Source of the DNA: a bacterium
GTDB taxonomy: Bacteria > Gemmatimonadota > Glassbacteria > GWA2-58-10
Direction of reading: 5' to 3'
Length of the DNA stretch: 42,463 nt
NCBI GenBank assembly: GCA_021372515.1
Contig: JAJFUG010000171.1
Coordinates: forward strand, 1-42,463
Shown piece after piece: positions 4,944 to 32,750 of the stretch (position 1 is the stretch's first letter; each line of letters starts with the position of its first letter). Both the position numbers and the translations under genes were made by a program. Under the pieces are notes generated by a model that was not told the DNA's origin, made no database searches, and worked only from the letters and a program-made list of their open reading frames with translations.

Positions 4944-5217
4944 AGTCGGAGAGCCATGACAACCGCCCGGCTGCAACAGCGGTCAATCCCCGAAAGTCGG
5001 ATTCGCATACGCTCTTGCGGAACAAACCGGAGGCTGGTCAGTATTAAATGATGCTTGTCCGCATAGCGTGCGCCGAACCCGGGAGGGGCGGGACAGGGGA
5101 GGAGTTGTCGCAGAGCGGGAGGGGACCGAGGTTGAGGCGATGGCCGGCGCTTTCGTGGAACGCTGAACTGGAATGAACATTCAAGGAATTTTCCAGACTG
5201 TATCCCGGAGGTCCCGG

Positions 5218-8082
5218 ATGCCGGTGGTTTCATTGTCCCGCTCGCGGACACTCGCGCGGCTCGTCCCGGCGGTGACAGCTGCGCTGCTGCTGTTCGGGGC
5301 GGGCGCCGCGCTCGCCCAGTTCGAGGGTTTCGGCAAAAACAAGGTGCAGTACAGCTCCTTCGACTGGCATATCCTGGCCGGCGAGCATATCGACCTCTAC
5401 TACTACCCGGAGGAGGAGGAGATCGCCTACCTCGCCCTCAAAGAGGCCGAGGCGGTGTACCAGGAGCTGAGTTTCAAGTTCGACCACCACGTTTTCCGCC
5501 GCGTTCCGCTGATCATTTTCAGCGCCCACCAGTATTTCGAGCAGACCAACACGGTCGAGGGTTTCATCTCCGAGGGTGTCGGCGGTTTCACCGAGTTCAT
5601 GAAAGGCCGCGTGGTGCTGCCGTTCAACGGCTCGTTCGATGATTTCCGCCACGTGCTGCGCCACGAGATGGTGCACGTGTTCGAGATCAGCAAGGCCAAC
5701 GAGGCCTACCGGACCCACCCGCACAAGAACAAGGCCCATCTTCCGCTGTGGTGGACCGAGGGCCTGGCCGAGTATTTCAGCACGCGCTGGAACTCAGAGG
5801 CCGACATGTACATGCGCGACATGGTGCTGAGCGACCGCGTCCCTCCGATGGAGAATATCGACATGCTGGGCGGCGGCATCATCTACAAGCTGGGCGAGTC
5901 GGTCTTCTACCTTCTGGGCCAGCGCTACGGCGATGAGATGATCGTGCGTATGTACGAAAACCTCTGGCAGTTCAGCGATTTCGACCAGTTGTTCGAATAT
6001 GTCTACGGGGTGAGCACGGAGCAGTTCAACCTGATCTGGCAGAACGAGCTGAAAAAGAAATACTATCCCGACCTGATCAACAACGACGAGATGCTGATCT
6101 CCGGGATCACCAAGGTCGCCACCAAGAGTTTCGCCAACATCCACCCCGCGGCCTACCTGGACCCGCGCTCGGGCCGCCCGCGCGTGGCCTTTGTCAGCGC
6201 GCGCACCGGCTACCTGGATATCTACAGCGTGCGTCTGGAAAAAGGGGAGAAAGACCTCAAAAAGCACGTGCGGGGCGGGCGCAGCGCCGAGTACGAGTCG
6301 TTCCACCCCCTGCGCACTCGCATGGATGTCAACGACAAGGCCATCCTGGTCTTTTCGAGCAAGTACCAGGAGAAGGATGCCCTGTTCCTGTTCGACCTGG
6401 ACCGTAACCGCAAGGTGGGGCGCTACCGGTTCAAGGGCCTAGTGGGGATCAGCGCGCCGGCCTGGGCCCCGGATGACGAGAACATCGTGTTCAGCGGGCT
6501 GAACGTGTCGGGGTTTTCCGACCTCTACCTGTTCAACCTCGAAAGCGGCCGCCTGACCCGCCTGACCAACGACCGCTACTCCGATGAGTACCCCGATTTC
6601 TCTCCGGACGGCAAGAAAATCGTTTTCTGCTCCGACCGCACGGCTTTCGGCGAGGCCGGCTTCCAGAACCTGTTCCTCTACGACATGGAAAGCGGCAGCA
6701 TCGACTACCTGACCCGCGGCCACTGGAACGACACCCAGCCGCGTTTCTCGGCCCGCGGCGACCGGGTGGCCTTCGTCTCCGACCGTAACGGCCTGCCCAA
6801 CATCTTCGCGGTCGACCTTCAGGGCCAGGGCGGCCAGATGACCAAGTTTTTCAACGGCATGCTGGGATTCGACTGGGCCCCCGCCGACTCGGGGTTCTGC
6901 TATTCCGCCCTGGACAGGCAGACCTACGGCATCTATTTCCTGCCGCTGCCCGATTCCACGGTGGACAGCCTGAGCCTGGACCGCAAGACCGTGGCCCAGC
7001 AGTGGGAGTGGCGTGACTACAAGGACCACCCCAAGAGCGAGAAATCCGAGCAGAAACCCTACAAGCGCGATTTCACCCTCGATTTCGCTTTCGCCTCGGT
7101 GGGCTACGACCCCACTCCATATTACGGCGGCACGTTCGGCTCGGGCCTGCTGATGTTCTCGGACCTGATGGGCGATGAGCTGATCCTGATCGGCGCGGGC
7201 AACAGCGCCACCTCGACCGATGATTTCTGGGACAGTTTCAGCGGCAGCGTGGTCTACTACAACCGCAGCTCGCGGGTGAACTACGGCTACGGGGCCTACC
7301 GCTTCGCCGGGCGTTTCATCGATTTTCGCACGGATGACTTTTTCTACGAGCGCGACCACGGCGTGTTCGGGCTGATCAGCTATCCGGTGTCCAAGTTCTA
7401 CCGGGTCGAGACCAGCATGGGGTTCCTCAAGAGCTACCGGGATGACTATTTCCTGGATTTCATCCGCGACTCTTACTTGGTGACCAACTCGGTGTCCCTG
7501 ATCAAGGACACCTCGCTGTTCACCCAGTACGGGCCGGTGGACGGGGAGCGCTGGCATCTGGGGATGGCCCTGACCACCGATCTGTCCAAGGGACGCACGG
7601 ACAATATTTCACTGTTGCTGGACTTGAGGAAATATTTTAGATTGAGTACGTTCTCATCTTATGCCGTCAGGGTGCAGGGACGATTCAGCGGGGGAAAGAT
7701 ACCCTACCGCTACGTGATGGGCGGAAGCTGGACCCTGCGCGGCTACCCGCGCTGGTCGATCATCGGCTCGCGGAGCGTGCTGCTGAATCAGGAACTGCGG
7801 TTCCCGCTGTTCCACCAGGTGGATTTCTACACCCCCATCGGGCGGATACCGTTCCCCGGCATCCAGGGGGCCCTGTTCGTGGATGCGGGCAACGCCTGGG
7901 AAAACAGCGAGGACTACCCAGGGCTGCTGGGCAGCGCCGGGTTCGGTTTCCGTATGAGTCTGGGCGGGGCGCTGGTGATCCGCCTGGACCGGGCGCGCCG
8001 GATAAACTGGCTCAAGCACGGCGACCCCGCTCTGTTCAGAAGCCGGTACTACACTAACTTCTTTTTCGGGTACGATTACTGA
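5218..8082 (+). CDS. Gluzincin peptidase / TolB-like propeller / Omp85-barrel fusion protein
   Basis: A 954-residue exported protein with three recognisable parts. After a signal peptide (cleavage near 'GAALA', about residue 33) comes a peptidase-MA-like zinc site: H149-E-M-V-H153 with Glu181 in 'WWTEGLAEYF'. The middle carries TolB/PD40 propeller blades such as 'YPDFSPDGKKIVFCSDR' and 'QPRFSARGDRVAFVSDRNG'. The C-terminal third is rich in aromatic beta strands and has the Omp85 motif 'GGSWTLRGYPRW' (near 834-845), ending in the aromatic 'FFFGYDY'. Inference: a barrel anchored in the outer membrane with a large periplasmic or surface peptidase and propeller. The start at 5218 has GGAGGT 5 nt upstream; the in-frame ATG at 5173 does not. 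The 274-nt gap before it (4944-5217) is G-rich on this strand and shows no clear gene. The substrate is unknown. Confidence 0.88.
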   Translation: MPVVSLSRSRTLARLVPAVTAALLLFGAGAALAQFEGFGKNKVQYSSFDWHILAGEHIDLYYYPEEEEIAYLALKEAEAVYQELSFKFDHHVFRRVPLIIFSAHQYFEQTNTVEGFISEGVGGFTEFMKGRVVLPFNGSFDDFRHVLRHEMVHVFEISKANEAYRTHPHKNKAHLPLWWTEGLAEYFSTRWNSEADMYMRDMVLSDRVPPMENIDMLGGGIIYKLGESVFYLLGQRYGDEMIVRMYENLWQFSDFDQLFEYVYGVSTEQFNLIWQNELKKKYYPDLINNDEMLISGITKVATKSFANIHPAAYLDPRSGRPRVAFVSARTGYLDIYSVRLEKGEKDLKKHVRGGRSAEYESFHPLRTRMDVNDKAILVFSSKYQEKDALFLFDLDRNRKVGRYRFKGLVGISAPAWAPDDENIVFSGLNVSGFSDLYLFNLESGRLTRLTNDRYSDEYPDFSPDGKKIVFCSDRTAFGEAGFQNLFLYDMESGSIDYLTRGHWNDTQPRFSARGDRVAFVSDRNGLPNIFAVDLQGQGGQMTKFFNGMLGFDWAPADSGFCYSALDRQTYGIYFLPLPDSTVDSLSLDRKTVAQQWEWRDYKDHPKSEKSEQKPYKRDFTLDFAFASVGYDPTPYYGGTFGSGLLMFSDLMGDELILIGAGNSATSTDDFWDSFSGSVVYYNRSSRVNYGYGAYRFAGRFIDFRTDDFFYERDHGVFGLISYPVSKFYRVETSMGFLKSYRDDYFLDFIRDSYLVTNSVSLIKDTSLFTQYGPVDGERWHLGMALTTDLSKGRTDNISLLLDLRKYFRLSTFSSYAVRVQGRFSGGKIPYRYVMGGSWTLRGYPRWSIIGSRSVLLNQELRFPLFHQVDFYTPIGRIPFPGIQGALFVDAGNAWENSEDYPGLLGSAGFGFRMSLGGALVIRLDRARRINWLKHGDPALFRSRYYTNFFFGYDY

Positions 8083-8084
8083 GC

Positions 8085-8996
8085 ATGAAAATCCGCTGCC
8101 CCAGTTGCCGCCGGGAGTTCGATTTCGACCCTGGCCAGGGGCCGGCGCGCTGTCCGTACGAGGGCTGCGGCTGGAGTTTCGGCCGCCAGTCCGCGACTGC
8201 GCCGGTTGCCGATGCTGAACCGAGCCTCGCCGTTGAGCCCGTGCAGATTCAATCTGGCGGGCTTTCGCTCATCGAGACATCCCCGGCTCCAGTGACGCAG
8301 TTGCCTGCAACCGTGGGCGGCACGGCGCTTCAGAAACGCAAGCCGTTGCGAGCCTGCCCGGCCTGCGGGACCGAGACGCGCCTGGGTGCGCTCTACTGCC
8401 CGGCCTGCGGGTTCTCGCTCCAGGACCCGGCCCGCGAGGGGCGCGGGCTGCGGGCCGTGTTCGACATCTCGGGCGACATCACTTTCTCGCCGCTGATGAT
8501 CGTTTTACTGGTGGTCTGTGTCCTGTCGGCTTTCCTGGTGTTCACCTGGCTGATCACCGGGCGCTCTCAACGCCGCGGCGGCCCGGCCGACATGGCGGCC
8601 GCGGCCCAGCAGGTGACCGCCGGCGCCGCGGTGCAGGGGGTGCCCTATCTGGAGCTCAAACGGGCTTTCCTCGACCCGGCGGTCACGGAGTTCAGCCGCG
8701 AGTCGATCCGCAAGAAATACCTCGGCGAGCGGGTGATCTGGAGCGGCCTGGTCAAGGCGGTCAGCGACGAGAGCGGCCAGCACCGTCTGGACCTGGTGAT
8801 GGAAGGCCCGGAATCCCGCAGCTATGTCACCCTGCAGGTGCTCGATCTGCCCAACAACATGAAGATGCTGGAGGACCTCAGCCGCGGCAGCCCGGCGCTG
8901 GTCTCCGGCAAGATCGCCGGGTTCGACACCGGCGGGCCCAACGACGCTTTCGACTATTTCCGGGTAGTGCTCAAAGAGGGGATAATCCTCAAATGA
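8085..8996 (+). CDS. Zinc-ribbon, single-membrane-span protein with a C-terminal OB-like domain
   Basis: A 303-residue protein of unknown function. Seen: an N-terminal cysteine cluster 'IRCPSCRREFDF' plus 'CPYEGCGW', a linker, a second zinc ribbon 'ACPACGTETRLGALYCPACG' (about 101-120), one strong membrane helix ('LMIVLLVVCVLSAFLVFTWL', about 140-160), and a C-terminal beta-rich domain. That domain, with 'GERVIWSGLVKAV' and 'GSPALVSGKIAGF', resembles the tRNA_anti-like OB fold of small envelope proteins. The ATG is 2 nt after the stop of the Omp85 fusion, so the two are almost certainly co-transcribed. This hints that the protein serves the same envelope process, with the zinc ribbons in the cytoplasm and the OB-like domain outside. 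Topology and role are inference. Confidence 0.7.
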   Translation: MKIRCPSCRREFDFDPGQGPARCPYEGCGWSFGRQSATAPVADAEPSLAVEPVQIQSGGLSLIETSPAPVTQLPATVGGTALQKRKPLRACPACGTETRLGALYCPACGFSLQDPAREGRGLRAVFDISGDITFSPLMIVLLVVCVLSAFLVFTWLITGRSQRRGGPADMAAAAQQVTAGAAVQGVPYLELKRAFLDPAVTEFSRESIRKKYLGERVIWSGLVKAVSDESGQHRLDLVMEGPESRSYVTLQVLDLPNNMKMLEDLSRGSPALVSGKIAGFDTGGPNDAFDYFRVVLKEGIILK

Positions 8997-9067: not shown

Positions 9068-9592
9068 ATGGATAGAGAGAAAGATGCCGCCGGCTCGGTG
9101 CGGGCCGCGGACAAGGTCATGTCTTTGCCGGCGCTGCTGGAAAACCTGGCGTGCCGTCGCGCCTCCGGCCAGCGGGTGGTGTTCACCAACGGTTGTTTCG
9201 ATATCATGCACCCCGGCCATATCGGCTACTTAGAGGATGCCCGCGCCTGCGGCGACTGCCTCGTGGTGGGCCTCAACTCGGATGCCTCGGTCCGGCGTCT
9301 CAAGGGCGAGGAGCGGCCGATCAACCCCCAGACCGACCGCGCCCTGATGCTGGCCGGGCTGGCCAGCGTGGACTGCGTGACGTTCTTCGAGGACGACACC
9401 CCGATCGAGCTGATCCGGGCGGTGCGGCCCGAGGTGCTGGTCAAGGGCGGCGACTGGAGCGTGGACAAGATAGTCGGCTCGGATTTCGTGTTCTCCTGCG
9501 GCGGCCAGGTTTTGTCCCTTCCGTTCCGGCCGGGCTATTCCACCACCAATATCATAGAAAAAATCAAGGCCCTGCGCGACAGCCGCCCCTGA
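9068..9592 (+). CDS. rfaE2: D-glycero-beta-D-manno-heptose 1-phosphate adenylyltransferase
   Basis: Nucleotidyltransferase of 174 residues that makes ADP-heptose for the LPS inner core (also called HldC, or the HldE C-terminal domain). Seen: the adenylyl-transfer motif '[16 protein letters not shown]' (about 41-56) with the HxGH signature, '[18 protein letters not shown]', '[12 protein letters not shown]' and 'LVKGGDW'. All are characteristic of the RfaE domain II family. It is a stand-alone enzyme without the RfaE1 kinase domain; no kinase gene is in the window. A purine-rich AGGGGAGAG precedes the ATG. The end '[13 protein letters not shown]' also fits the family. Its presence supports an outer membrane with heptose-containing LPS. 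Confidence 0.93.
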
Positions 9593-9660: not shown

Positions 9661-12600
9661 ATGAACCGTTTCCAGCGTCTCTGTCTGCTTTGCCTGCTCG
9701 CCGCTCTGGTCCCGGCTGTTTCGACCGCCCGGGCGCAGAAAATTGAAGACGAGTTGGAGGCGGTGTTGCAGACCGCCCCACCCGACTCCGAGCTCACGGT
9801 GCTGGTGCGACCGTCCCTGGCGGTGGATGTCCTAGGCCTGGAAAACCAGCTCCGCGCCGGCCGGGCCTCCCGCGCCGAGCGTCACGGACGTATGCTGCGC
9901 GCCCTCAAGCAGAAAAGCGAGGCCTCCCAGGCCACGCTGCTTGGGCACCTGTCCCAGACCAAGCGTAAAGCCGGACCAATCCGCGAATACCAATCTTTCT
10001 GGATCACCAACCTGGTGGTGGTGCACGCCACGCCCGAGGGTGTGCGCCAGTTGGCCTCGCGTGCGGATGTGGGCCAGGTGCTGGCCAGCCGTAAAGTCTC
10101 CCTCGAGGAAAAGAAAAAGGAAGTCTCTACCACAGTGCAGGCGGATGCCAGCCTGGCCGCCTCCTCCGCGGTGTCTCTGTCCGCAGCCAAGTCTTTCAAC
10201 TGGGCCCTGACCCGCCTTAAGGTGCGCGAGCTGTGGAAACGCGGGATAACGGGACGGGGAATGCTGGTCGGGATAATCGACTCGGGAGTGGACGGCAACC
10301 ACCCGGCGCTCAAGAACAAGTGGCGCGGGGCCAACGGGGCCACCTCGGTCGAGAGTTGGTACGACCCGGTCACCGGCAGCACTTTCCCCATCGACGACCT
10401 CGGCATCACCCACGGCACCGGGGTGATGGGCTGTATCCTGGGCCAGGACGGGGCCGATACGCTGGGCATGGCCCCGGACGCCCAGTGGATCGCGGCCAAG
10501 GCTTTCGACAGCAACGGCAGCCCGACCAACGAAAGAATCCTCTCCTCGTTCCAGTGGATGGCCGACCCGGACAGCGACCCGGCCACTATCGACGATGTCC
10601 CGGATATCCTCAACCTCTCTTTCGCGGATGACGACACCCACGGCTGCGAGCAGTGGATGTGGGAGCCGATCCGCAACCTGACCGCCCTGGGAGTGACCGT
10701 GTTCATCGCCACAGGCAACGTGGGCGCGCGTGTCGGCTCGCCGGGCAGTAACCCCGAGTTCTTCGCGATCGGTCCCATCGACAGCCTGGACCAGCGCCCC
10801 TATTACGCCCTGATCGGGCCCTCGCTCTGCGACGGTAAAACTATCAAGCCGGACGTGATGGCGCCCGGCCACCAGGTGCTGACCACCCGCGGCTCGGTGG
10901 GAGGGGGCGGCTACACCACGATGAACGGCTCCTCGTTCGCCTCGCCGCTGGTGGCCGGGCTGGGTGCGCTGCTCCGTCAGTACAACCCCGAGCTCACCCC
11001 GGGCGAGGTCACCGCGGCGATCCGTAACAGCGCCGATGACGACACCCACACCGCCGGGCCGGACAACTACTACGGCTACGGGATCGTCAACGCCCCGGCC
11101 GCCCTGGGCAAGCTGACTGTCCCGCTCAAACCCTCGTTTGCCATCCTGGCGCTCAATGTGAGCGCGGGCGGAGACTCCCGGATCGACCCCGGCGAGCAGG
11201 CCAGCCTCTGGCTCACTGTCATAAACAACGGCGCCGCGGCTTCGAGTGTCTCGGCCAGCCTGCTCTCCTCCAGCCCGGATGTGAGTTTTACCAGCGCCAC
11301 GGCCTCTTTCGGCGCCATGACCACCGGCCAGAGCCGCGATAACCAGTCTCAGCCGTTCGGTCTCGCTTTCGGCGTGCATATCCCGCGCGGGGTGCTGCGC
11401 ACCTTCAAGCTGGTCCTGACCGCCGGGGCCGTGCGCGACACGGTGAGTTTCGCCCTGGCCGTGGGCGGCGAGCCGGAGCCGCCGCTGAATTCTTTCCTGG
11501 CCCACAACCTCAACCGGGCCGGGCTGTCGATCACCAACTACGGCGTGATCGGCACGGACGGTGACAAGGGCGGCGGGTTTGTCTATCCTGACGGGACAAG
11601 CCAGTCCAGGGACCAGCTTTTCCAGGGCGCGCTGATGCTGGCCACCGGGCCGACCACTATCTCGGATGCCTCGTACAACGAAAACAGCATGGGCGCTAAC
11701 AGCGTGAAGTTCAACCACGATTTCAGCGTGGTTCCGGGCGGCAACCTGGTCAAGGCGCAGCCCGGACAGTACGCCGACCAGGAGATAAGCGGGGTGTACA
11801 ACGACAGCCTGGCCGCCGTTCCTCTGCGGATCGAGGTCTCCCAGTACAGCTACGCCTGGAGCGACGCCGCGGACAGGGATTACGTGATCGTGGAGTACAA
11901 CCTCACCCAGACTAAAGGCAGCGGGGTGGACGGCCTGTACGTGGCCCAGCACATGGACTGGGACGTGGGCGGCAGCGGGGACAACGACCTGGCCGGGTTC
12001 GACCGCGCCGCGTCCCTGGCCTACATGTACGACAGCACTTCCGGCGCCTGGGTCGGCCACGCCCTTCTGACCCAGGCCGTGGCTGGCTACCGCGCCCTGA
12101 ATTTCGCGCGGGACATCCAGGACGGGTTCAGCACGGCGGAAAAGTTCGCCTCCATGACCACGGGCGGCGAGCGGGACAGCCTGTCCGGACCCAAGGGTGA
12201 CTGGAGCGAGCTGCTTTCGGCCGGGCCGCTGTTCCTCAAGCCGGGGCGTACTGTGCCCGTGGCCTGGGCCGTGATCGGGGGGGCGAGCCTGGAGGAGCTG
12301 CGCACGCGGGCCGCCGCGGCCAGAGTGCGCTACGCCCAGGTGGCGGCGCAGAAAGGGATCGACCTGGCCCCGCCGGTGATAAGCTCGCTCGTGCCACCGG
12401 ACCCCACTGCCGGGCTCGAAACACATACCGTGCGGGCGAGGATCGAGGACGGCTCGGATATAGAGCAGGCGGTGGTGTTGTGGCGGGTGGCCGGCGGTGC
12501 GACATTCTTCAAGTCCTCCTTCGGACAGACTGACAGCGCCGGCCTGCGCGCGGCCGGCATACCGGGGATGGTCGCCGGGACAACTGTGGAATACTATCTT

Positions 12601-13188
12601 CGCGCGGTGGACGCCATGGGCAACCAGGGTTTTCTGCCCGCGGGAGCGCCGTCGCAGGTGTTCTCTTTCACCGTGTCCGACAGCCACCCGCCCGAGATTT
12701 CCCTGGCCTCGGCCAGCGCCGACACCACGGCCGGAGCCCAGCGCTACTGGCTGCAGGCCACGGTCAAGGACGACAACCTGGCCCGCGTGCTGGCGGTCTG
12801 CGCCGTGGGGGACTCGCTTTTCAACGACAGCCTCGCCCTGAAACGGCTCGGCCAGAGCGATACGTTCCGCGGCGAGCTGACCGGCCTGGAGCGGGGGACC
12901 ACGGTGCGCTATTTCATCCTGGCGCAGGACCTGGGCGGCAATGTCTCGTTCGACCCGCCGCAGGCCCCCGCGCTCTACCTGTCGTTCCGGTTCACGCCGC
13001 CCTCGCCGGGGGATGGCGACCTGGACGGCAAGCTGAGCATTTTCGACCTGCTCACCCTTCTGCGGGTCCTGGGCCACAGCGACACACCCTCGCCGGAGCA
13101 GAAATACGCCCTCGACCTGGACCGCAACGGGCGGATCGACATTTTCGACCTGCTCGCCCTGCTGCACCTTCTGGCCGGCTCCGGCTGA
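9661..13188 (+). CDS. Secreted subtilisin-family (S8) serine peptidase with C-terminal dockerin-like module
   Basis: A 1,175-residue exported peptidase. Seen: a signal peptide ending near 'STARA', an inhibitor-like N-terminal region, then the S8 catalytic triad Asp207 ('IIDSGVDGNHP'), His251 ('THGTGVMG') and Ser425 ('NGSSFASP'), with the oxyanion segment 'IATGNVG'. After the catalytic domain come beta-sandwich regions, including an Ig-like stretch with 'YYLRAVDAMGNQG' and 'RYFILAQDLGGNVSF'. The last 59 residues (1117-1175) are two calcium-loop repeats, 'GDLDGKLSIFDLLTLLRVL' and 'LDLDRNGRIDIFDLLALL', which look like a type I dockerin. AGGAGAACG precedes the ATG. The gene stands alone. A closely similar module occurs in the protein at 30705. 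No cohesin partner is visible here. Confidence 0.92.
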   Translation: MNRFQRLCLLCLLAALVPAVSTARAQKIEDELEAVLQTAPPDSELTVLVRPSLAVDVLGLENQLRAGRASRAERHGRMLRALKQKSEASQATLLGHLSQTKRKAGPIREYQSFWITNLVVVHATPEGVRQLASRADVGQVLASRKVSLEEKKKEVSTTVQADASLAASSAVSLSAAKSFNWALTRLKVRELWKRGITGRGMLVGIIDSGVDGNHPALKNKWRGANGATSVESWYDPVTGSTFPIDDLGITHGTGVMGCILGQDGADTLGMAPDAQWIAAKAFDSNGSPTNERILSSFQWMADPDSDPATIDDVPDILNLSFADDDTHGCEQWMWEPIRNLTALGVTVFIATGNVGARVGSPGSNPEFFAIGPIDSLDQRPYYALIGPSLCDGKTIKPDVMAPGHQVLTTRGSVGGGGYTTMNGSSFASPLVAGLGALLRQYNPELTPGEVTAAIRNSADDDTHTAGPDNYYGYGIVNAPAALGKLTVPLKPSFAILALNVSAGGDSRIDPGEQASLWLTVINNGAAASSVSASLLSSSPDVSFTSATASFGAMTTGQSRDNQSQPFGLAFGVHIPRGVLRTFKLVLTAGAVRDTVSFALAVGGEPEPPLNSFLAHNLNRAGLSITNYGVIGTDGDKGGGFVYPDGTSQSRDQLFQGALMLATGPTTISDASYNENSMGANSVKFNHDFSVVPGGNLVKAQPGQYADQEISGVYNDSLAAVPLRIEVSQYSYAWSDAADRDYVIVEYNLTQTKGSGVDGLYVAQHMDWDVGGSGDNDLAGFDRAASLAYMYDSTSGAWVGHALLTQAVAGYRALNFARDIQDGFSTAEKFASMTTGGERDSLSGPKGDWSELLSAGPLFLKPGRTVPVAWAVIGGASLEELRTRAAAARVRYAQVAAQKGIDLAPPVISSLVPPDPTAGLETHTVRARIEDGSDIEQAVVLWRVAGGATFFKSSFGQTDSAGLRAAGIPGMVAGTTVEYYLRAVDAMGNQGFLPAGAPSQVFSFTVSDSHPPEISLASASADTTAGAQRYWLQATVKDDNLARVLAVCAVGDSLFNDSLALKRLGQSDTFRGELTGLERGTTVRYFILAQDLGGNVSFDPPQAPALYLSFRFTPPSPGDGDLDGKLSIFDLLTLLRVLGHSDTPSPEQKYALDLDRNGRIDIFDLLALLHLLAGSG

Positions 13189-16833: not shown

Positions 16834-18546
16834 ATGAGGCTGACCACCGCATTTGAGCTTACCCTGCTCTGCGTATCGCCCTGTTTCCTGCTGGCACAGG
16901 CCGCAGTCGGAGGTGGGAGAGTGGGTTACGAGTACTGGATACCGAACTCCGAGACCGACTCCGCGGCCATGCACGGGATCCATTTCCGGGAATTCATCAA
17001 CGGCTCGGCGCATCTCCCGCCGTACGAGTTCCGCTACCAGCGTTGGGATGACCCGCAACTCGGCGAGCTGAACCGCCGCCTGGGCGTGGACAGCCTGGTG
17101 GCCGGGGCGAAGGACGACCTGGAGGCGGCCAGCCGGATCGCGCTCAAGGTCTGCAACCTCTGGGCGCACACCGCGCCGGTGGAATATCCGGTCTGGAACG
17201 CCCTCGGCCTTCTGGACCGGGTCGGGCAGGGGGAGCAGTACTGGTGCACCTACAAGCAGCTCGTGACCATGCAGGCCCTGGCCTCGATCGGCCTGGTGAG
17301 CCGGATCGTGCCCTGCAACTGGCACCACTCGCACGAGTTCTGGTCCAACGATTACGGCCGCTGGATCGTGATGGACGCCTGGACCGCCAACTTTTACCGC
17401 AAGGACGGTGTTCCGTTGGGCGCGCTGGAGCTGCACCGGTTGAGCCGCGCCACGGGCGATCTCAAAGGCTCCGGGGTCTGGGAGATCAATAACAACCCCA
17501 ACCGCTCGCAGCCGGGGCGCACCCAGGACAGCGTTCCTGCCGAGAGCGGCTGCTACAGCTACGTGCGGATGATCCCGCGCAACGATTTTCTCTCCAACCC
17601 GCTCGCCCCAAAGCCCGCGGGAGCGCCGGGCAGCTACCTTCAGCCCAACAACCAGCTAAACGACCCCCTGATGACCGGCCTGGAGCACGTGGCCTGGTGG
17701 CAGCCGGGCGACCCGCCGCCGCTGGTCTGCCCCACGGTGCGGGATGAGCGGGACTGGAATTTCCCGCTGGACGAGGTGGAGCTGGACCTGCGCCGTCCGG
17801 TGACCCGCGAGGGCGTGCTGGAGATGACACTCAGCACCAACACGCCCGAGTTCGACACCTATCTGCGGCGGCTGGACAACGGCCAGTGGGAAGCCTGCGG
17901 GAGCCACTTTCTCTGGGAACTCAAGCCCGGCGCGAACAGCCTGGAGCTGAAAAGCCGCAACAAGTGGGGACGCTGCGGGCCGGTGAGCCGGGCCGCGCTG
18001 GATTACAGTCCCGGGGAACTGCGGCCGAAGATTGTCACCCGTTTCGAGATACCGGACCCGGGGTTCGAAAAGTCGAATGCGGCGCAGGAGGGCTGGAACG
18101 GCAACCCGGCGGTCGGCTGGCGCATGATCTACACCGATCCCTGGCAGAAACCCGCCTTCGCCGGGGCGGTGAAAGACGCTCCGCACTCCGGGAGCTGGTG
18201 TTTCCGGATCCAGCCGAACCAGCGCGGGATCTGGGCGCGCCTGGTGAGCGGCTCGTTCCGGGTGAACCCGGCCTCGGATGTGACGCTCAAGGTCTGGCTG
18301 CGCGCCGACAGCGACAAGCGCGAGGCGACAGTATACCTCAAGGACTCCACTCCGGGCGGGCCGGCCTCCCAGGCGATCTGGCAGCAGCGGGTGGTGCTGG
18401 ACACGCAATGGCGCTGCTACGAGCTCAAGGCCCGTCTCACCGCACGCACCAGCGAGCTGATGGCCGGGGTGCAGGCGTTCGGGGGCCAGCTCTGGGTGGA
18501 TGATTTTTCGTTGGGCGAGGACAGCCGGACGGAGCTTCCCTGGTGA
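16834..18546 (+). CDS. Secreted transglutaminase-like protein with C-terminal carbohydrate-binding-like domain
   Basis: Exported protein of 570 residues. Seen: signal peptide ('LLCVSPCFLLAQA', cleavage near 21), then a transglutaminase-like core with a plausible Cys-His-Asp triad: Cys138 in 'YWCTYKQLVTMQAL', His167 in 'NWHHSHEFW' and Asp181 in 'WIVMDAW'. A beta-sandwich stretch follows. The final 165 residues (from about 400) resemble a CBM4/9-type jelly roll, with 'SGSWCFRIQPNQRG', 'VTLKVWLRA' and 'GGQLWVDDFSLGE'. Such folds can be proteases, deamidases or cross-linkers; the reaction is unknown here. The ATG at 16834 follows GAGGAAAGCG; an in-frame ATG at 16822 lacks a site. The stop overlaps the GTG of the barrel gene, so the two form one operon. 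Confidence 0.75.
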   Translation: MRLTTAFELTLLCVSPCFLLAQAAVGGGRVGYEYWIPNSETDSAAMHGIHFREFINGSAHLPPYEFRYQRWDDPQLGELNRRLGVDSLVAGAKDDLEAASRIALKVCNLWAHTAPVEYPVWNALGLLDRVGQGEQYWCTYKQLVTMQALASIGLVSRIVPCNWHHSHEFWSNDYGRWIVMDAWTANFYRKDGVPLGALELHRLSRATGDLKGSGVWEINNNPNRSQPGRTQDSVPAESGCYSYVRMIPRNDFLSNPLAPKPAGAPGSYLQPNNQLNDPLMTGLEHVAWWQPGDPPPLVCPTVRDERDWNFPLDEVELDLRRPVTREGVLEMTLSTNTPEFDTYLRRLDNGQWEACGSHFLWELKPGANSLELKSRNKWGRCGPVSRAALDYSPGELRPKIVTRFEIPDPGFEKSNAAQEGWNGNPAVGWRMIYTDPWQKPAFAGAVKDAPHSGSWCFRIQPNQRGIWARLVSGSFRVNPASDVTLKVWLRADSDKREATVYLKDSTPGGPASQAIWQQRVVLDTQWRCYELKARLTARTSELMAGVQAFGGQLWVDDFSLGEDSRTELPW

Positions 18547-19844
18547 GACAGATCTGCAGGCGGGATATCCAGGAGATGCGGAAATCGGCCCAGTGGCGCG
18601 CGGCGCGGCTGGCCGCGGTGGTGCTATTTCTTGCCTGCCTGCCCTCAGCTCTTCCTGCGCAGACTGACTCGCTTAGCGTGCTGAGCCGGCGCAAGTTCTG
18701 GGCTTTCGATTTCAAGGGGCTGGGCGGGTTCTATCCTGCGTCGTACTCCCGGGTGGATGGCCTTCTGGGGGGCTGGGGCCTGACCCTGACCGGCAAGGAG
18801 GAGATAAGCATTCCCGCCGCCGGGTTGAAACAGGTGGTGGAGGACCAGTCCCGCCCCAGCCTGGGCGTCTCTCTGCTCGTCCCCAGCGCCCGTCATGCGG
18901 TGGGCGGCACGTTCAGTCTGAGCCAGACTGTCTCCTCGCGGCGTCGGATCAAGGCGGGCCTGGAGCTTTTCTCCGCCACGGCCAGCAGCGATTCCTGGCG
19001 TTCGGCCCAGCCCTGGAGCGGCCTGTATTACTTCGCCGGCGGCCGGGACCGTCAGTACTACTACGACCGCCGCGGGGGACGGCTGAGCCTGGGCCGTGAG
19101 TACCCCGGAGGCCTCAGCCTGGAGCTGGCCACCGAGTGCAGCGAGGTGCGCTCGCTGGTCAGGCGCGGGGTCTGGACCGTGGCCAAGTCCGAACTGCTGA
19201 AAGACAATCCACCGGTTGACAGGGGTGGAGATTTTTCCCTGGAACTGAGAACCTCAATCGACCGCACCGCGGGCGGGCCGTTTTTCCCGCAGGGCTGGTC
19301 GGCCGGTTTCCGGGTGCTCAAGGCGGCCCGGCTGCTGGGTGGGGATTTCGACTACTCGCTCTGGCGAGCCGACCTGTTCTGGGCGCGGCACTTGCTGAGC
19401 GAGAGCAACTACGCTTTTGCCAGGCTGACCGGCATGACCGCCGGGGGGCGGCTTCCGCCGCACCGTCTGTTCAGTCTGGGGGCCGAGGTCAAGGGCCTCG
19501 ACACCTTCGAGCCCGATTTCAACCTGTTCGACCGCCGCGGCGACCGTCTCTGGCTGCTCAGCCTGGGCTGCGAGCGCCTGCTGCCGTTCCGGTTTCCCCT
19601 GGTGTCCCGCCACCTGACCGACCCCGGCCTGGAGCTGGATTTCGACACCGGCTCCACCCGCCTGTCCCGCCCAGGAGACAGCTCCCTGGACCTGTTCAGC
19701 CGCAGCCTGGACTGCCTGGAATCCTCAGTCGCACTGGGGGGCGGGTTCTCGCTCAGCCGGGTGCGGGTGCGGCTGTTCTACGTGCACAGCCTGAACGACA
19801 GCTATCACGGGCCGCGTTTCGACCTGCGGGTGGGCGCTTTCTGA
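18543..19844 (+). CDS. Predicted outer-membrane beta-barrel protein
   Basis: A 433-residue exported protein that I cannot place in a named family. Seen: an N-terminal signal segment ('LAAVVLFLACLPSALPA', followed by Q), then alternating hydrophobic and aromatic strands throughout, for example 'SLGVSLLVPS', 'GLYYFAGGRDRQYYY' and 'LSLELATECSEV'. The protein ends with aromatic 'FDLRVGAF', the typical C-terminal signal for barrel assembly. The GTG start overlaps the stop of the transglutaminase-like gene (GTGA) and has GGAG 8 nt upstream; an ATG at 18576 directly abuts AGGAG and is a weaker choice. Tight coupling suggests the barrel exports, anchors or cooperates with the transglutaminase-like protein (inference). 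Confidence 0.7.
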   Translation: MRQICRRDIQEMRKSAQWRAARLAAVVLFLACLPSALPAQTDSLSVLSRRKFWAFDFKGLGGFYPASYSRVDGLLGGWGLTLTGKEEISIPAAGLKQVVEDQSRPSLGVSLLVPSARHAVGGTFSLSQTVSSRRRIKAGLELFSATASSDSWRSAQPWSGLYYFAGGRDRQYYYDRRGGRLSLGREYPGGLSLELATECSEVRSLVRRGVWTVAKSELLKDNPPVDRGGDFSLELRTSIDRTAGGPFFPQGWSAGFRVLKAARLLGGDFDYSLWRADLFWARHLLSESNYAFARLTGMTAGGRLPPHRLFSLGAEVKGLDTFEPDFNLFDRRGDRLWLLSLGCERLLPFRFPLVSRHLTDPGLELDFDTGSTRLSRPGDSSLDLFSRSLDCLESSVALGGGFSLSRVRVRLFYVHSLNDSYHGPRFDLRVGAF

Positions 19845-30704: not shown

Positions 30705-32750
30705 ATGGACTCCATGCGCGGACGTATTGGTTGGCTTTGGCTCACGGGCCTGTGGCTCGCTTTCCTGCCCATCGCCGCTTATCCACAGACTCAGGTTGCA
30801 GGCGGCGCTGCGGCGGTCCTGCGCGGCGACCTGGATGAAAACCAGCGGGTGGACATTTTCGACCTTCTGGGCCTGCTGCGCTATGTAGGCGGCGGCAGTC
30901 CCGCGGATGCACGTATAAGGCGGATCGCCGACCTGGACCGCTCGGGCGACGGCAAGGTGACGGTGTTCGACCTGCTGGCCATGCTGCGTGTCCTCTCGGG
31001 CGCGGTCAAGCCGGATACGCTGCTGTTCTCCAGCCCGTTCCGACGGGTTTGGGCGCTGGGCGATGGCGAAAAGGTGTTCCGCGAGAACCTGGACCATCTC
31101 TCCAGCCACGGCAACGGGGTCTGGGACGGCGACACGATCCGCTTGAGCGGCCTGTACAACGAGGTGCTGGCTTTTCAGGTGATCTGCGAGTCCGACAGTC
31201 TCGGGTCCTCGCAGGTGGATATCCGGATGGACCCACCCGCGAGGATGGAGGGCGGGCCGGTGATTGGGGGCGCGGGCGGGCCGGAGTACGGACCCGGCGG
31301 TTACGTGGAGGTGTTCAGCGAGCATTACCTCCACGTGGTGAACCCTACCGTTCTCTACTGGTCCTACGGCTCATCCGCCTCGGCCCCGGCGCACATGACC
31401 GGCTGGATCCCGGATGCCCTGATCACCCCGGACTCGAAGCCCGGCCTGGGCGGTTTCCCCCTCGACATCGAACCCCGTCAGAACCAGGGGTTCTGGTTCG
31501 ACCTCTACCTGCCACGCGACAGTGTCACCCACCCGGCCGGGGTTTACTACAGCACCGTGCGGGTGCGCACCCAGGGCTGGGAGGTGGAAACGCTCCCGGT
31601 CAAGATTACCCTTCTGCCGCATTTCCTGCCCGATTCCACCCATTCGAATGTCTGGCTTTACCACGACATCGTGGAGCGCTATTACAGCGATTACATGTCG
31701 AGCCAGGAGATCGAGCGAATGCTCAAATACACCGCCCACCGTCACCGGATTGATCTGGTGGGCGGGTTTAGCGTGCATTACTCGGCTTTCGACAGCACTA
31801 TGATGGAAGCCTACGCGCCGTATCTTGACGGTAGCGCGTTCACCGTGGCCGCCGGCTATCAGGGGCCCGGCCAGGGACAGGGGGAAAAGCTTTTCCCAAT
31901 CGGGATGTATGGTTCGAGTGTGATGGGCGACACCTGGAGCGAAACCTACCGCAACTCCGACCTCTGGGTGAACTGGTTCGAGGCCCACGCCCCGCAGGTC
32001 AGGTATTTCTGGTACCTGATCGATGAGCCGGGCGAGGACATGTTCAGCTGGATCGAGCAGCGCGCCGGCTGGATACACTACAATCCCGGTCCGGGCAAAC
32101 GCTTGCCGATTTTCATCACTCGCCCCTACACCGCCGAGCTGGACAAGGATATCGACCTCTGGGCCGGCGGTGACGGGGTGCCGCTGGATAAACTGGCCGC
32201 TTTGCAGAGCCAGGGCAAGGACCACTGGTTCTACAACGGCAGCCGACCGCGCTACGGCTCTCATATCCTTGAGGACGAGGCGGTGGACCTCCGGGTAAAC
32301 GCCTGGATCAAGTACATGTACGGAATCAACACCTGGTTCCTCTGGCACGGCACGCACTGGATACACAACGGCTCGGGTCCGCGCGCAGGCCAACCCCAGA
32401 ACGTGTTCGTGGACCCGGTCACTTTTATCGGCAACCCGACCACGTTCGGCAACGGGGATGGGGTCGTGTTCTACCCGGGCCGCGAGCCGTTCTTCACCGA
32501 CCAGGACCGCGGGGTGGACCATCTGTTCGGCTCGATCCGGCTGAAAAACATCCGCCGCGGCCAGCAGGATTTCGAGCTTCTGCGCCTGGCCGAGCAGAAA
32601 GCCGGGCGGGACGCCGTGCTGGAGATCATCCACTCGGTGGTGCCCAAGGCGATGAGCGAGGTGAACATGAACGCGAAAGTGCCCTGGTCGCAGCGTGGGG
32701 ATGACTACGACACGGCGCGGGCGAAGCTGCTGGAAATGCTCGGCCGCTGA
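30705..32750 (+). CDS. Secreted DUF4091/GH123-like protein with N-terminal dockerin-like module
   Basis: Exported protein of 681 residues. Seen: signal peptide ('WLAFLPIAAYPQTQ'), then at 41-100 two calcium-loop repeats, 'GDLDENQRVDIFDLLGLLR' and 'ADLDRSGDGKVTVFDLLAML', closely like those at the end of the subtilase at 9661. The rest resembles the glycoside hydrolase 123 / DUF4091 family: a beta domain, a barrel with an Asp440-Glu441 pair in 'YLIDEPGED', the motif 'GYQGPGQGQ' (384-392), and the C-terminal 'IRRGQQDFELLRL' typical of DUF4091. GH123 enzymes are beta-N-acetylgalactosaminidases using an Asp-Glu pair; the substrate here is unknown. The ATG has no strong ribosome site. It heads a glycan-type locus with the genes to 38.7 kb. 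Confidence 0.8.
   Translation: MDSMRGRIGWLWLTGLWLAFLPIAAYPQTQVAGGAAAVLRGDLDENQRVDIFDLLGLLRYVGGGSPADARIRRIADLDRSGDGKVTVFDLLAMLRVLSGAVKPDTLLFSSPFRRVWALGDGEKVFRENLDHLSSHGNGVWDGDTIRLSGLYNEVLAFQVICESDSLGSSQVDIRMDPPARMEGGPVIGGAGGPEYGPGGYVEVFSEHYLHVVNPTVLYWSYGSSASAPAHMTGWIPDALITPDSKPGLGGFPLDIEPRQNQGFWFDLYLPRDSVTHPAGVYYSTVRVRTQGWEVETLPVKITLLPHFLPDSTHSNVWLYHDIVERYYSDYMSSQEIERMLKYTAHRHRIDLVGGFSVHYSAFDSTMMEAYAPYLDGSAFTVAAGYQGPGQGQGEKLFPIGMYGSSVMGDTWSETYRNSDLWVNWFEAHAPQVRYFWYLIDEPGEDMFSWIEQRAGWIHYNPGPGKRLPIFITRPYTAELDKDIDLWAGGDGVPLDKLAALQSQGKDHWFYNGSRPRYGSHILEDEAVDLRVNAWIKYMYGINTWFLWHGTHWIHNGSGPRAGQPQNVFVDPVTFIGNPTTFGNGDGVVFYPGREPFFTDQDRGVDHLFGSIRLKNIRRGQQDFELLRLAEQKAGRDAVLEIIHSVVPKAMSEVNMNAKVPWSQRGDDYDTARAKLLEMLGR

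Follow-up and report, generated by a model that had tools for sequence, protein, structure and literature searches.

A predicted zinc peptidase, TolB-like propeller and Omp85 barrel in one chain that probably helps to build or police the outer membrane of Gemmatimonadota

One gene in a 42,463-nucleotide stretch of Glassbacteria DNA (the window) raises the question of what a protein would do that joins a zinc peptidase, a TolB-like propeller and an Omp85 barrel in a single chain. The open frame at 5218-8082 (+) ends in a stop codon and encodes 954 residues according to our ORF check. Given that a GGAGG lies 5 nt before it, the ATG at 5218 is a better start than the mechanical ORF start at 5173, favoring the start chosen in the initial annotation, which had been made from the sequence alone. 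A scan for promoters and terminators around the gene found none. The features of the gene are as follows:

5208-5212 (+): Shine-Dalgarno-like GGAGG, 5' of the ATG, read from the sequence
5218-8082 (+): coding sequence of the peptidase-propeller-Omp85 chain (ORF, conservation, AlphaFold2, and Pfam across homologues)
5218-5316 (+): putative Sec signal peptide, residues 1-33 (A-L-A/Q), assigned by eye
5359-6081 (+): predicted gluzincin-type zinc peptidase domain, residues 48-288 (PF13485 in homologues; Foldseek)
5662-5676 (+): HEMVH zinc-binding motif, residues 149-153
5758-5760 (+): E181 of EGLAEY, expected third zinc ligand
6100-6981 (+): six-bladed TolB-like propeller, residues 295-588 (PD40; TolB profile; Foldseek; strand count)
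7075-8073 (+): 16-stranded Omp85 barrel, residues 620-952 (AlphaFold2; profile; Foldseek)
7735-7746 (+): LRGY, the Omp85 motif in loop L6, residues 840-843 (conservation and AlphaFold2)
7882-7884 (+): D889 of strand 13 (FxDxG), expected partner of R841 (conservation)

We aligned 21 homologues from several phyla and modeled the chain on this alignment with AlphaFold2 (mean pLDDT 78.5, pTM 0.76). H149, E150, H153, and E181 are invariant in all 21 homologues, down to 26% identity. Across all loci examined in our survey, an HExxH followed by an EGxAE-type helix is found in 46/46 chains, with 44 distinct cores; retention of the core in every chain, together with the invariant ligands in the homologues, argues that the peptidase is under selection. 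In the model, the HExxH lies on a helix spanning residues 140-166 and E181 on the successive helix, 177-188. The zinc site of H149, H153, and E181 that had been proposed for this chain is thus supported through conservation and predicted secondary structure, not through zinc-site coordinates. The Peptidase_MA_2 family (PF13485) matches 16 of the homologues, with a best E-value of 2.3e-15; its match to the 954-residue chain alone (E 0.016) falls under the Pfam cut-off. Folded by itself, the peptidase domain is closest in Foldseek to M9 collagenase, M1, and M61 (E 1.7e-4 to 1e-3), and no M48 domain (PF01435) was matched in the chain or its 21 homologues. With its HExxH on one helix, a downstream Glu, and a Pfam and fold match, the chain is, as judged by sequence and model, a gluzincin of the Peptidase MA type, and may hydrolyze peptides in a zinc-dependent way.

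PD40, the family of the propeller blades, is the sole Pfam family over its cut-off when the chain is searched alone (E 6.5e-16), and it matches 21/21 homologues. The profile check suggested for the chain by itself therefore held for PD40 and failed for the other two families, PF13485 being under its cut-off and PF01103 absent. NCBIfam returned a TolB propeller (3.5e-33) and an Omp85 family (6.4e-10), both under their cut-offs; a profile search placed a TolB match at residues 392-555 (E 1e-29); and Foldseek with the whole chain recovered TolB (2.3e-11) and BamA (6.5e-9) as well as TamA and FhaC. AlphaFold2 predicts 24 strands in this region, arranged as six blades of four. The N-terminal domain of TolB (PF04052) is absent from the chain in Pfam searches, so that the resemblance is to the TolB-type propeller only.

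For the barrel, PF01103 (Omp85) matches 8/21 homologues, the best at 3.8e-9, and the profile search matched BamA-type barrels at residues 610-926 (9ccg, E 1.9e-7; BamA, 1.3e-4). As had been foreseen for the C-terminus, the model has exactly 16 strands, between residues 620 and 952, and LRGY sits between strands 11 and 12, its usual place in Omp85 proteins. R841, Y843, and D889 are each at least 90% conserved among the 21 homologues, and D889 is kept in every homologue that extends that far; by analogy with BamA and FhaC, D889 is the expected partner of R841. Pfam finds no POTRA domain in the chain, and the linker at 589-619 is too short to hold one. Family profiles, conservation, predicted strands, and Foldseek together bear out the initial annotation's three modules, although its limits of 40-260, 260-620, and 640-954 had to be corrected to 48-288, 295-588, and 620-952. 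As read from these sequences, the three-module chain is more than a chance arrangement.

These modules could be read as a membrane-anchored housekeeping protease, in which the barrel serves mainly as an anchor or peptide pore and a propeller-gated peptidase processes periplasmic or lipoprotein substrates with no barrel insertion. Propellers gate the prolyl oligopeptidase and tricorn peptidases, both of which are among the families matching the chain in sequence; a chain without POTRA domains suits this role, and the enzyme domain of PlpD is known to stay in the periplasm (PMC11116518). What makes this reading unlikely is that the chain keeps the L6 motif and the strand-13 aspartate of active Omp85 proteins, beyond what an anchor needs, and that the operon points to outer-membrane biogenesis.

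This operon is seen in most other loci of the phylum, outside Glassbacteria, where the usual order on the same strand is a YbgC-type thioesterase (identified by TIGR00051), a cyclophilin with a signal peptide (PF00160 plus HEAT repeats), the chain, a lipoprotein, LptE (PF04390), and RfaE2 (TIGR02199, over cut-off); in several cases the frames overlap slightly, by about 4 nt. Overall, the lipoprotein and LptE lie directly downstream of the chain in 27/29 loci. In a first set of orthologous loci, searched with neighbor profiles that were themselves built from a few of the same 17 loci, we found the lipoprotein in 17/17, LptE in 17/17, the cyclophilin in 16/17, and the thioesterase and RfaE2 in 15/17 each. 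A second set of 12 loci was fetched afterwards from further genomes, including families unused before; here the lipoprotein and LptE follow the chain in 10/12, the thioesterase precedes it in 11/12 and the cyclophilin in 7/12, and no operon member is on the opposite strand. Because L082 and a first-set locus may come from one and the same contig, this second set is nearly, not wholly, independent of the first. RfaE2 is downstream of the chain in most loci.

The lipoprotein between the chain and LptE is a beta-rich protein of 240 residues with a lipobox-like cysteine (L029:7856-8575, L024:7897-8568, and equivalents elsewhere). It has no Pfam, NCBIfam, or convincing PDB match; possibly it is a LolB-like protein or a subunit of the LPS translocon. 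Against a link to the LPS translocon, LptE is absent from the operon in Glassbacteria, the window's own family, and is also missing from two loci of family f9, L074 and L076. Operon membership can also be inherited without any physical link between the products, which counts against reading the chain as an assembly factor for the translocon.

In the window itself, the chain is preceded by ResB, a CcsA-type protein, and an ABC ATPase, and followed by a zinc-ribbon/OB protein, RfaE2, and a subtilase. Two of these downstream genes bear on the choice of partners:

8085-8996 (+): protein of 303 residues with a zinc-ribbon, one TM helix, and an OB-like domain, a neighbor restricted to the chain's own family
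9068-9592 (+): RfaE2/HldE domain II, LPS heptose adenylyltransferase (TIGR02199, E 3.4e-62, over cut-off)

RfaE2 is the operon part that Glassbacteria share with the other loci. The zinc-ribbon/OB gene, which begins 2 nt past the stop codon of the chain, had been put forward as a probable partner. A homologue adjoins the chain gene in 4/5 family relatives (G001, G002, G003, and G005), and beside none of the other loci examined outside the family. The fifth relative, G004, has no intact gene at this position; a short stretch there (L022:3600-3980) starts with MKIRCP and contains DYFRIVLE, and from its sequence looks like an internally deleted remnant. The gene does not, then, always accompany the chain, and with its adjacency confined to one family we rejected it as a universal partner; the suggested partnership is not supported in general.

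Elsewhere in the window, the subtilase (S8) at 9661-13188 carries a C-terminal dockerin type I domain, and BLAST relates 30705-32750 to the same subtilase family. A 433-residue protein at 18543-19844, beside a transglutaminase-like protein, has no Pfam match and looks exported and strand-rich; it is possibly another outer-membrane barrel.

The proximity of LPS genes suggests a second alternative, in which the barrel thins or opens the membrane and, with LptE and the lipoprotein, aids the passage of LPS or phospholipid to the outer leaflet while the peptidase regulates the complex. LptE and RfaE2 are indeed neighbors, and lipid roles have been discussed for TamA/TamB (PMC11116518). Yet Pfam finds no lipid-binding domain in the chain, and LptD is encoded elsewhere in 40/41 genomes, as detected with PF19838 (PF04453 had missed LptD), so that the LPS route looks complete without the chain. 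We regard a role in lipid handling as rather improbable.

The chain has relatives in Gemmatimonadota, Eisenbacteria, Elusimicrobia, and further phyla, in agreement with the FCB-type distribution anticipated for it. A family match is present in 41/41 genomes of our first survey, and, with a threshold of E 1e-100, the close group of the 954-residue chain is present in 51/249 phylum genomes. The window's genome also encodes a second three-module chain of 1233 residues (L041:4368-8069, minus strand), with HELAH...EGMVE, a propeller, and a barrel-like end with FRGAGY. In this paralogue, a long linker of low complexity connects the propeller to the barrel, and matches of its type are found in most phylum genomes surveyed. 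No recognized LPS-related gene lies beside it, which counts against reading the 954-residue chain as an assembly factor for the LPS translocon.

The same genome separately encodes a five-POTRA BamA, a three-POTRA Omp85, TolB (a TolB_N gene), and LptD. We rejected a substitution of the chain for BamA, TolB, or LptD, all three being encoded elsewhere; since the standard machinery is present, the chain is an addition to it. In four genomes (G008:C26, G016:C1, G033:C11, and G034:C13), a distance of about 5 kb separates TolB_N from LptD_2 genes, and this spacing suggests a Tol-Pal/LptD cluster in the phylum.

How does the chain compare with known systems? The main text of a 2014 computational survey by Heinz and Lithgow names the propeller-Omp85 pairing 'WD40-Omp85' and describes it as an uncharacterized, non-POTRA architecture in which a propeller most like TolB precedes the Omp85 barrel (PMC4104836); such subfamilies were still called not well characterized in 2024 (PMC11116518). 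Our chain likewise has propeller repeats followed by an Omp85 barrel and no POTRA. It differs in its additional N-terminal zinc peptidase, the word 'peptidase' being absent from the 2014 main text, and in the operon found here, none being reported in the main-text passages of that paper (PMC4104836). The initial annotation was right that no function has been assigned, insofar as the 2014 main text leaves WD40-Omp85 uncharacterized; its fusion of usually separate modules stands for the complete three-module chain, but the propeller-Omp85 half had already been named there (PMC4104836). The same text has a 'Metallo' Omp85 subfamily that it calls 'metalloprotease' (PMC4104836). We rejected this as a peptidase-Omp85 precedent because PF00149, which defines the class, is described in Pfam as a calcineurin-like phosphoesterase. 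In the open literature, including the main text of the 2014 survey, we found no peptidase-propeller-Omp85 fusion; neither the gluzincin domain at the N-terminus nor its strict conservation nor the operon with LptE turned up there. Against that literature, these last three appear to be new here, whereas the propeller-barrel pairing was already known.

Three better-studied systems each share parts with the chain. E. coli BepA, a zinc peptidase, promotes the maturation of LptD or degrades it while on BamA (PMC8423444); like the chain, whose periplasmic side we infer, it is a periplasmic HExxH peptidase tied to an Omp85 barrel and to assembly of the LPS translocon. BepA is a separate M48 protein with TPR repeats, however, whereas the chain's peptidase is fused and resembles M9, M1, and M61 gluzincins, a difference that counts against an assembly and quality-control model. 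BamA binds a propeller, BamB (PMC13067283), again pairing an Omp85 barrel with a beta-propeller; in contrast to the chain, the propeller there is a lipoprotein of its own and the barrel protein carries POTRA domains, while the chain's propeller is TolB-like and covalently joined in an organism that also encodes a normal BamA. Finally, PlpD, a patatin-Omp85 protein, has an enzyme domain N-terminal to its barrel, as the chain does, though the enzyme is a patatin lipase accompanied by one POTRA rather than a zinc peptidase with a propeller.

PlpD also bears on the idea of type V-like secretion, in which the barrel would carry the chain's own peptidase and propeller, or else a partner protein, out to the surface. 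Part of the barrel matches ShlB/FhaC profiles (the ShlB match to the chain alone, E 8.6e-5, is under the Pfam cut-off), and the patatin-Omp85 protein was formerly interpreted in this way. But PlpD, the model for the idea, has been shown to hold its enzyme domain in the periplasm (PMC11116518), and the conserved neighbors of the chain are LptE, the lipoprotein, and biosynthetic genes, with no conserved secreted partner adjacent. Self-secretion is therefore very unlikely.

We conclude that the chain probably helps to build or police the outer membrane. More specifically, we give roughly even chances, by analogy, to an accessory factor for outer-membrane assembly and quality control whose foremost candidate client is the LPS translocon. 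We take this as the likeliest function because the same three kinds of parts are fused and the gene keeps company with those for LptE and a prolyl isomerase that has a signal peptide. Cutting of substrates during secretion or insertion, as first envisaged, is possible; assembly and quality control is preferred to secretion because the operon is conserved.

What we found are the modules (by profile and predicted fold), the invariant active site, core retention, and the operon; in the model that follows, we propose how the chain is oriented, which clients it has, that it cleaves them, and in what sequence these steps occur. The chain would be exported by Sec and lodge its Omp85 barrel in the outer membrane, leaving the propeller and zinc peptidase on the periplasmic side, as analogy with PlpD suggests. 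The barrel would engage immature beta-barrel clients much as BamA does, the propeller would dock clients or partner lipoproteins, standing in for POTRA domains and BamB, and the peptidase would clip stalled clients. Most likely, the chain would act on components of the LPS translocon (LptD with LptE) or on further barrels produced together with it. BamA binds its partners through POTRA domains, and the lack of these in the chain counts against a BamA-like reading. Taken to its full extent, this assembly model would have the chain unite counterparts of BamA, BamB, and BepA in one molecule, assembling and proof-reading LptD-LptE with the operon-encoded periplasmic cyclophilin and lipoprotein as partners; Gemmatimonadota and neighboring phyla would then possess a second barrel-assembly machine, one that bears a protease. 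We offer this stronger version only tentatively.

A 2026 review counts the recognition and removal of stalled barrel proteins from BAM among the unknowns (PMC13067283). If an insertase-type barrel and a protease are one molecule, the tether between the two would open this question to direct testing. From the operon, in turn, come specific candidates for the clients and partners of an Omp85 subfamily which, going by the main text that named it, has been without any since 2014.
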